Shown in pieces: positions 41,754 through 43,526 of a stretch of DNA of 48,507 nucleotides (position 1 is the first letter of the stretch; each line of letters starts with the position of its first letter). The position numbers were made by a program, and so were the translations under genes. The notes under the pieces were generated by a model, which was given only the letters and a program-made list of their open reading frames with translations, searched no databases and was not told the DNA's origin. Origin of the DNA: Akkermansia muciniphila (GTDB taxonomy: Bacteria > Verrucomicrobiota > Verrucomicrobiia > Limisphaerales > UBA11320); NCBI GenBank assembly GCA_945861575.1, contig CAMAVD010000009.1, forward strand, positions 1 to 48,507. The letters are read 5' to 3'.

Positions 41754-43526
41754 TCAGTTCAGAAACTTTTCGTCAGTCAGGCTTCTCAGAAACTCCACCA
41801 GGGCCTTCTGGTCCGCGTCACTCAGACGAATCCCGCCGCTAGGATGTTTCGCCAGATTCGGATCCAATGTTTCACCTCGTTTCAGGCCGGTACTGTAGTG
41901 TTCCACAACGTCCTCGAGTTTAGCGAACCGCCCGTCGTGCATATACGGGGCGGTCAGCGCGATGTTGCGTAGGCTGGGAGTTGCAAACTTGCCCGTGTCG
42001 GAGGATTTGCCCGTGACTTTCGCGCGGCCGATGTCTTTGAACACCGAATCAAGTCCGTTATTGGCAAAGGTCTGGCTCTGGAACAATGGACCACCATGAC
42101 AGTGGAAACAGTCCGCGCCGTATTGTTCCCGGCGGGGCTCATACTCGGTCATAAACAACTCGAATCCCCGTCTTTCTTCAGCGCTGAGTTCAGCGTGTCC
42201 CTTCAACGCTCGGTCGAACTTGGAGTCAAACGATGTTTGGGTGAGCAGAAAGGATTCAATCGCCAGCCCGATCTTTTCCGCAGTGATTTCTGATGACCCA
42301 AAAGCGGCTGCAAAAAGAGGGAGGTATTTTGCTTGATGCGTCAGCTTCTCCACAACGTTGACGAGTGTTTCATCCATTTCTGTAGGGTCTTCAATCGGCA
42401 TCAACGCCTGAGCACGCAGGGACGGCGCCCGTCCATCCCAGAAAAACGAGTTGCGCCAGGCGAGGTTAAACAAGGGCATCGAGTTGCGAGTGCCACTCTG
42501 TTGGCGAACGCCGACGCTAAATTGGCGCGGGTCGGAAAAGGCATGTTTGGAGTTGTGGCATGCGGCGCAGGAAATCATGCCGTCCTTGGAGAGTGCCGTT
42601 TCGTGAAATAGTCTTTCGCCGAGTGAGACACGTTCGGCGATCAATGAATTGTCCTGCGGCAGGTTCGGCATCGGAAACGTGGAGCTCATCTTGAATGGAT
42701 AGGGGGTAAAGGTCTCAGGCAGGTAGAGCGGCGTGACGCTCGAGACTTTCACGGGAAGGGTTGCCGTTGCGCTGAGGCGGTTGATCGAGAACGCGCCCGG
42801 GAGATTCGCCCCCAGGGCACTGGAGATGGGATCGCCCGGACGTGAGTGCGTGGACGATCCGTCCTTGGCGAAGGAGAGCGGGCGGGGTGCGTTCAACAAG
42901 CTGGCCAGATCGAAATTGAGTTCGAGCTTTGTGTCATTCGTCAGCCGCAACTCGGCGGCGAGGGTGATCCGGGTTCGATGGGTATCATTGGCAAAATGGT
43001 AGGACCAACCATCCAGCGAGCCTGCGGCATTGCGCCACCTCCCTTCCAGCGCCATGAAGATATAGCCGCTCTGCCAGTTCCAGTGCAGGCCGTTCAGGTT
43101 CGGGTTCAACGGATGGTCCGCAGGGAATTGCGCGGGATCGGCATGGTTCAGCGTCTCGCCAAGGCCTACGTCGAACCGAAGGCTGCGATACGTGGCCGCA
43201 GGTAGCTCCTGCAGTGGCCACTCCGAGCGGCCCCGCTCCAGATCGAACCAGGCGATCCGATTGGTCAGCTCAAGCCAGGAACCATCGCTGCGCTGCAGCG
43301 CGAAGCCGCTGGCGAGCCAACTGACGCGGGTGAAGGAAAAACGCTCGCCGACCGAGGTTTGGTAACGAAGCGAGTCGGGCTGGATGGGCTCCCCGGAGAA
43401 CTTCGGTGTGATGAGGAGCTCCAAAGTGGCACCCGCGCTGCCCCAGCCGTCAAAGGCGAGCCATGTGACAAGACCCAGGAGGCGGAGGACTTGGGACGGC
43501 TTGAGGTGCAGTGTATCGGGATTCAT
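41754..43526 (-). CDS. MbnP-MbnH fusion: copper-binding MbnP-like domain joined to dihaem cytochrome c peroxidase-like MbnH
   Basis: I chose the ATG at 43524-43526 (590 residues), which precedes a signal helix. Residues about 35-270 match the MbnP family: YQTSVGERFSFTRVSWLASG, a DGSW turn, LPAATYRSLRFDVGLGETLN, and the hallmark LHWNWQSGYIFMALEG with Trp149 and Trp151. Residues about 300-590 are a dihaem peroxidase of the MbnH/MauG/CcpA superfamily with CAACH (320-324), SGTRNSMPLFNLAW, FFWDGRAPSLRAQAL, CFHCH (473-477) and TPSLRNIALTAPYMHDGRF. In known systems MbnH oxidises a Trp of MbnP to kynurenine, creating a copper site; the two are normally separate genes. Here enzyme and substrate appear on one chain. 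It should act in the periplasm. Confidence 0.88.
   Translation of the reverse strand: MNPDTLHLKPSQVLRLLGLVTWLAFDGWGSAGATLELLITPKFSGEPIQPDSLRYQTSVGERFSFTRVSWLASGFALQRSDGSWLELTNRIAWFDLERGRSEWPLQELPAATYRSLRFDVGLGETLNHADPAQFPADHPLNPNLNGLHWNWQSGYIFMALEGRWRNAAGSLDGWSYHFANDTHRTRITLAAELRLTNDTKLELNFDLASLLNAPRPLSFAKDGSSTHSRPGDPISSALGANLPGAFSINRLSATATLPVKVSSVTPLYLPETFTPYPFKMSSTFPMPNLPQDNSLIAERVSLGERLFHETALSKDGMISCAACHNSKHAFSDPRQFSVGVRQQSGTRNSMPLFNLAWRNSFFWDGRAPSLRAQALMPIEDPTEMDETLVNVVEKLTHQAKYLPLFAAAFGSSEITAEKIGLAIESFLLTQTSFDSKFDRALKGHAELSAEERRGFELFMTEYEPRREQYGADCFHCHGGPLFQSQTFANNGLDSVFKDIGRAKVTGKSSDTGKFATPSLRNIALTAPYMHDGRFAKLEDVVEHYSTGLKRGETLDPNLAKHPSGGIRLSDADQKALVEFLRSLTDEKFLN

Follow-up and report, generated by a model that had tools for sequence, protein, structure and literature searches.

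The window, a 48,507-nucleotide stretch of a contig from the bacterium Akkermansia muciniphila (Verrucomicrobiota), carries a gene in which a protein of the MbnP type and a di-haem enzyme of the MbnH type form a single polypeptide (Table 1). In methanotrophs, MbnP and MbnH are two separate proteins that must meet for the oxidation of one tryptophan. The open frame starts with an ATG and has no internal stop codon. In the 5.2-Mb genome, 85.6% complete, it matches only itself and is thus present as a single copy. It is flanked on one side by a divergent WD40 gene and on the other by a gene for an unknown protein followed by a sigma factor, and no copper gene adjoining the fusion was seen among these neighbors in the window. 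As judged from its sequence, the protein is probably exported and periplasmic; its first 33 residues are poorly conserved and are modeled with low confidence.

Table 1. Features of the fused gene and of its product (positions in the window; residues numbered from the initiator methionine).
Feature	Position	Strand	Remark	Basis
Fused MbnP-MbnH gene	41754..43526	(-)	590 aa, coordinates including the stop codon	Open frame, PF20243 and CCP_MauG in one protein
Residues 1-33, hydrophobic N-terminus	43428..43526	(-)	Putative Sec signal peptide	Read from the sequence
MbnP domain, residues 34-222	42861..43427	(-)		PF20243, profile match to separate MbnPs, model match to 7l6g
WxW motif, W149-N-W151	43074..43082	(-)	W149 predicted to be converted to kynurenine	
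H177	42996..42998	(-)	Predicted copper ligand	Invariant in fusions and in all separate MbnPs aligned
T226-H227-S228	42843..42851	(-)		Invariant in 99 fusions; alignment with classical MbnPs
End of MbnP fold and variable inter-domain linker, residues 233-285	42672..42830	(-)		Length variation in alignment, low pLDDT
MbnH/MauG-type di-haem domain, residues 290-588	41763..42659	(-)		TIGR04039, CCP_MauG, 6e1c by sequence and structure
Haem 1 motif CAACH, residues 320-324	42555..42569	(-)		Both Cys and His invariant in 98/98 fusions
W363...Q373, P377, E383	42378..42440	(-)	Inter-haem Trp and distal-pocket residues	MauG alignment
Haem 2 motif CFHCH, residues 473-477	42096..42110	(-)		Invariant among fusions
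Y544	41895..41897	(-)	Haem-2 axial ligand of the MauG Tyr294 type	Tyr at this position in MauG and MbnH

The two halves of the fusion protein

The sequence-only reading that drew attention to this gene had set beforehand, as its refuting test, an HMM comparison of the N-terminal half with the MbnP family. The Pfam MbnP family PF20243 matches residues 34-222 with an E-value of 3e-29 and 102.7 bits, above the cut-off of 27. The score with the NCBIfam equivalog TIGR04052, which describes MbnPs of the four-Cys type, is 40.5 bits, below the cut-off of 140. Used as a single-sequence query against the PDB, this half matched no chain, and a family profile, which also includes separate MbnPs, retrieves 7l6g (MbnP of Methylosinus) at 4.7e-64. 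In an independent test, a profile made from fusions only and one made from separate MbnPs only align with 99.4% probability (E = 9.6e-22); the negative control with the haem domain gives 0.3%. A chance WxW in an unrelated domain is ruled out by the PF20243 match, the profile comparison and the fold.

The motifs lie where the same reading had placed them, LHWNWQSGYIF at residues 147-157 with W149 and W151, and the two haem-binding motifs at 320-324 and 473-477. W149 and W151, which it had expected to align with conserved tryptophans of MbnP, are invariant in 99/99 fusions and coincide with the WxW of eight separate MbnPs; together with H177, they are also invariant in separate MbnPs of three other phyla. 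H148 was considered as a required ligand, and this idea is weakened by the tyrosine found there in 4/99 fusions. Two residues before the first tryptophan stands a leucine in 98/99 fusions and a methionine in most separate MbnPs. Further along, separate proteobacterial and cyanobacterial MbnPs carry Cys-Met-Ser (once Cys-Met-Gly), whereas the fusions carry Thr-His-Ser, so that H227 aligns with the methionine of the classical motif. This alignment, at about 20-30% identity, suggests a Met to His swap at the copper site. D232 is invariant over the 99 fusions. Residues 34-262 contain no cysteine, and no cysteine is conserved in the MbnP domain of the fusions.

Apart from the invariant W149, W151, H177, and T226-H227-S228, the MbnP half is mostly variable across 99 diverse fusions. 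The contrast between these positions and the rest bears on the idea that the MbnP half is an evolutionary relic, with its copper function lost and only a structural role left beside a MauG-like enzyme. The disappearance of the four cysteines and of the methionine of the Cys-Met-Ser motif would fit a relic, as would an enzyme of the same clade that has lost the entire MbnP half (L018, see below). Nevertheless, the strict retention of precisely these residues makes a relic very improbable.

The C-terminal half was likewise expected to fall within the MbnH or cytochrome c peroxidase families, and this is borne out. CCP_MauG matches residues 298-445 and a second stretch (3.6e-53, Pfam), and a cytochrome c family matches residues 468-583. 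The first-ranking NCBIfam family is MbnH (TIGR04039, 6.9e-69), with 232.5 bits for an equivalog cut-off of 362.9; MauG follows (TIGR03791), with 189.3 bits for a cut-off of 443.9. The best match in a PDB sequence search is 6e1c (MbnH of Methylosinus, 1.9e-43). Residues W363, Q373, P377, E383, and Y544 align with W93, Q103, P107, E113, and Y294 of MauG, whose roles in catalysis have been described (PMC6405878). W363, Q373, and E383 are invariant in the fusions and P377 is conserved in more than 90% of them. Y544, invariant in 94/94 fusions, aligns with a methionine of 3o5c. A classical cytochrome c peroxidase (CcpA) is ruled out, because Tyr544 replaces the methionine axial ligand of the electron-transfer haem. 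The fusion has the two CxxCH motifs, the inter-haem tryptophan and the tyrosine at the haem-2 axial position expected of an MbnH, and the partnership with MbnP is found within the same polypeptide. Cytochrome c assembly proteins are encoded in the genome. An insertion of about eight residues precedes haem 2 (PRREQYGAD here; residues 463-472, 42111-42140 on the minus strand). It is specific to the fusions, being absent from MbnH and MauG, and possibly contacts the MbnP half.

A lasting redox role of the haem domain is the strongest rival to a maturation enzyme. The di-haem half would then be a multi-turnover, copper-assisted peroxidase and the MbnP half an attached redox or electron-entry module, kynurenine being incidental or absent. 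Redox enzymes do often carry a cupredoxin or a cytochrome c fused to them as electron donor, and an enzyme that turns over once and is fused one to one with its substrate would leave the haem domain jobless, yet both halves are fully conserved. We nonetheless find such a peroxidase unlikely: Y544 in place of the methionine axial ligand is of the MauG/MbnH type, the WxW tryptophan is invariant and would be unneeded for electron entry alone, and MbnH, not CcpA, comes first in both the family and the structure comparisons.

An AlphaFold model built from 18 fusions has a mean pLDDT of 71 and a pTM of 0.49, with low pLDDT at residues 255-265 and 281-288. Compared with the PDB, its first match is 6e1c (MbnH, E = 1.7e-16), followed by MauG complexes and peroxidases; the same model matches 7l6g (MbnP) in Foldseek with an E-value of 7.9e-10, a probability of 1.00 and a target-normalized TM of 0.52. 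As modeled, a single chain thus resembles the solved structures of both partners, MbnP and MbnH. With a pTM of 0.49, the orientation of the domains and the placement of W149 relative to haem 2 are too uncertain in the model.

The presence of MbnP and MbnH in one polypeptide is supported alike by family searches, by the comparison of profiles and of structures, by the conservation of catalytic residues and by the survey presented below. The identity proposed for the two halves holds as to type and does not extend to the classical proteins. Indeed, the fusion is a variant, since it lacks the four cysteines and the methionine of Cys-Met-Ser and falls below the NCBIfam equivalog cut-offs for both families.

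Distribution, origin and genomic context

PF20243 occurs in 16 of the 289 Verrucomicrobiota genomes, in frames of about 580-810 aa, except for two genomes with broken copies, one with split frames (G108) and one with an insertion (G121). No intact stand-alone MbnP gene (PF20243) was found in the 289 genomes. In G121, transposase-like ORFs interrupt the fusion gene (L050:4728-8543), and immediately upstream lies a gene similar to the tail part of a YHYH-type protein.

A survey of Verrucomicrobia had been suggested as a check on the fusion. Seventeen further full-length fusions from the class were aligned. The GTDB genome collection yielded 376 relatives, of which 80 were kept, nearly all labeled as Verrucomicrobia groups. 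The two halves are fused in one ORF in 79 of these 80 loci; in the last one, the contig ends within the gene. A sequencing or assembly artifact is ruled out by the 17 full-length fusions and the 79 of 80 independent loci. The fusion is thus real, old and phylum-wide in Verrucomicrobiota, and represents a variant of an enzyme and substrate already known as a pair rather than a category of its own. Accordingly, the sequence-only reading was right about the fusion, which is no peculiarity of this organism, as the fused form is the normal state in this phylum. No report of an MbnP-MbnH fusion was found in the open-access literature, and an earlier mention may exist elsewhere.

In a tree of the haem domain, the sampled fusions form one group (SH-aLRT 98), which also includes a stand-alone di-haem enzyme devoid of an MbnP domain (L018, from G088). 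The simplest reading of this topology is one ancestral fusion, followed by a single loss of the MbnP half in L018. The sister clade (L019-L025) consists of stand-alone Verrucomicrobiota di-haem enzymes, several of which have a different N-terminal region replacing MbnP. Separate pairs from Proteobacteria, Cyanobacteria and Deinococcus show the order MbnP-MbnH, the same as the domain order of the fusion. The separate genes often overlap by a few bases (4-8 nt in three pairs), and the loss of the stop codon in such an overlapping pair could have produced the fusion. Two plasmid records covering more than 80% of the fusion query correspond to separate Deinococcus gene pairs.

Gene neighborhoods were counted over 87 loci, duplicates removed, each with 1.5 kb or more of upstream sequence. 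A gene of the YHYH family (PF14240), for which no known function was found and whose members have several conserved histidines and tryptophans, lies within 5 kb of the fusion in 47 of the 87 loci (for example L079:3532-5259); in 33 it is directly upstream on the same strand. Sensor kinases are found near the fusion in 14 loci; the family nearest to their representative is the heavy-metal CopS/SilS one (285 bits for a cut-off of 293). In three loci an RND pump is encoded directly upstream, of the CusA/CzcA type in the one tested. In the genome of the window, the YHYH gene lies on a contig other than that of the fusion (G000:C2:25000-38000, L159), beside genes for an EF-hand-like protein, a sulfatase-like protein, a response regulator and a heavy-metal-type sensor kinase, with a cation-efflux gene nearby. 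In one genus (L041:1813-10710 and relatives), a gene of about 2960 aa lies downstream and overlaps with the fusion; its product combines kelch, lectin, PKD and cytochrome c domains with a partial CCP_MauG domain.

The frequent proximity of YHYH genes and the several conserved tryptophans of their products might mean that the di-haem half acts in trans on another protein, such as the adjoining YHYH, the MbnP half serving as a docking or copper-delivery domain. This is rather improbable in our view: about half of the loci have no YHYH gene nearby, the copy in the genome of the window is on another contig, and the fused MbnP half has an invariant WxW substrate motif of its own.

As noted by the sequence-only reading, no methanobactin genes are visible nearby. 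Indeed, the MbnB family (PF05114) was not found in the 85.6%-complete genome, on which ground a methanobactin operon was rejected.

Proposed self-maturation and comparison with known systems

With no intact stand-alone MbnP in the phylum sample, the di-haem half would have as its substrate either the fusion itself, in the same or a neighboring molecule, or a target other than MbnP. Since the fusion is standard across Verrucomicrobiota, self-maturation or mutual maturation of these proteins is probable. Our favored reading, which we consider reasonably probable, is therefore that the fusion is a self-maturing periplasmic kynurenine copper protein, whose substrate is in the same or a neighboring chain and which then handles copper. 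Peroxide, or O2 and electrons, would oxidize the MbnH half to a bis-Fe(IV)-like state as known for MauG, the haem pair being oxidized through W363. The oxidized MbnH half would convert W149 of the MbnP half, in cis or in trans between fusion molecules, to kynurenine, which would complete a copper site around H177 and H227. We infer that, after this one-time maturation, the exported protein would bind and handle copper through His/His/Kyn ligation in the periplasm, often with the YHYH-family protein encoded just upstream. The copper context supports this reading, with CopC/CopD next to the Deinococcus pair and with CusA-type pumps and heavy-metal-type sensor kinases near some fusions. More tentatively, and with some doubt, the fusions may constitute phylum-wide, obligately self-maturing copper proteins having a His/His/kynurenine site instead of a His/Met/kynurenine one, with the YHYH family as a dedicated partner.

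A natural fusion holds enzyme and substrate in a fixed 1:1 ratio, and the haem-driven oxidation of a tryptophan over a long range could be followed in cis within one protein. Kynurenine copper chemistry would also extend to a large phylum, with no link to methanobactin found in the genome of the window, and the uncharacterized YHYH family gains a likely functional partner.

The closest solved systems are those of Methylosinus trichosporium OB3b. In work of 2021, Methylosinus MbnP was reportedly found to bind Cu(I) via a histidine, a methionine and a nearby kynurenine derived from the first tryptophan of WxW. OB3b MbnP (7l6g; PF20243, TIGR04052) has in common with the fusion its fold, the WxW tryptophan pair and the conserved histidine. 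In contrast, the MbnP domain of the fusion is joined to the haem enzyme and lacks cysteines, and the methionine of Cys-Met-Ser is replaced by an invariant histidine. Similarly, OB3b MbnH (6e1c; TIGR04039) shares the inter-haem tryptophan, the distal Gln/Pro/Glu and the tyrosine at the axial position. However, the corresponding half of the fusion sits behind MbnP and lacks the long insertion that MbnH has after haem 2. Unlike OB3b MbnH, it carries the extra residues ahead of haem 2, and an LDPNLAKHP motif in its C-terminal part.

The separate MbnP/MbnH pair of Deinococcus radiodurans matches the fusion at 81% coverage and 35% identity, with the same gene order. It differs from the fusion in that each protein has its own gene, with copC and copD next in order, and in that its MbnP keeps the methionine before WxW. 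This pair also falls below the NCBIfam cut-offs, with scores of 85 for MbnP (TIGR04052) and 263.5 for the MbnP-adjacent enzyme (TIGR04039).

Other kynurenine copper proteins of methanotrophs invite comparison with the fusion at the level of the copper site. CorA has a two-histidine kynurenine copper site (Kyn62, H64, H114), with an adjoining di-haem peroxidase gene (PMC3912023), and the His/His/kynurenine site proposed from the sequences of the fusions would resemble it. CorA/CorB, as well as MopE and the di-haem partner of MopE, are encoded by separate genes and follow a Kyn-x-His pattern, whereas the fusion has W149-x-W151 with H177 and H227. Finally, MauG, involved in tryptophan tryptophylquinone biosynthesis, shares with the fusion the di-haem fold and the catalytic residues. 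No mau genes were seen beside the fusion, and MauG acts in trans on methylamine dehydrogenase, whereas the substrate proposed here is part of the fusion itself.
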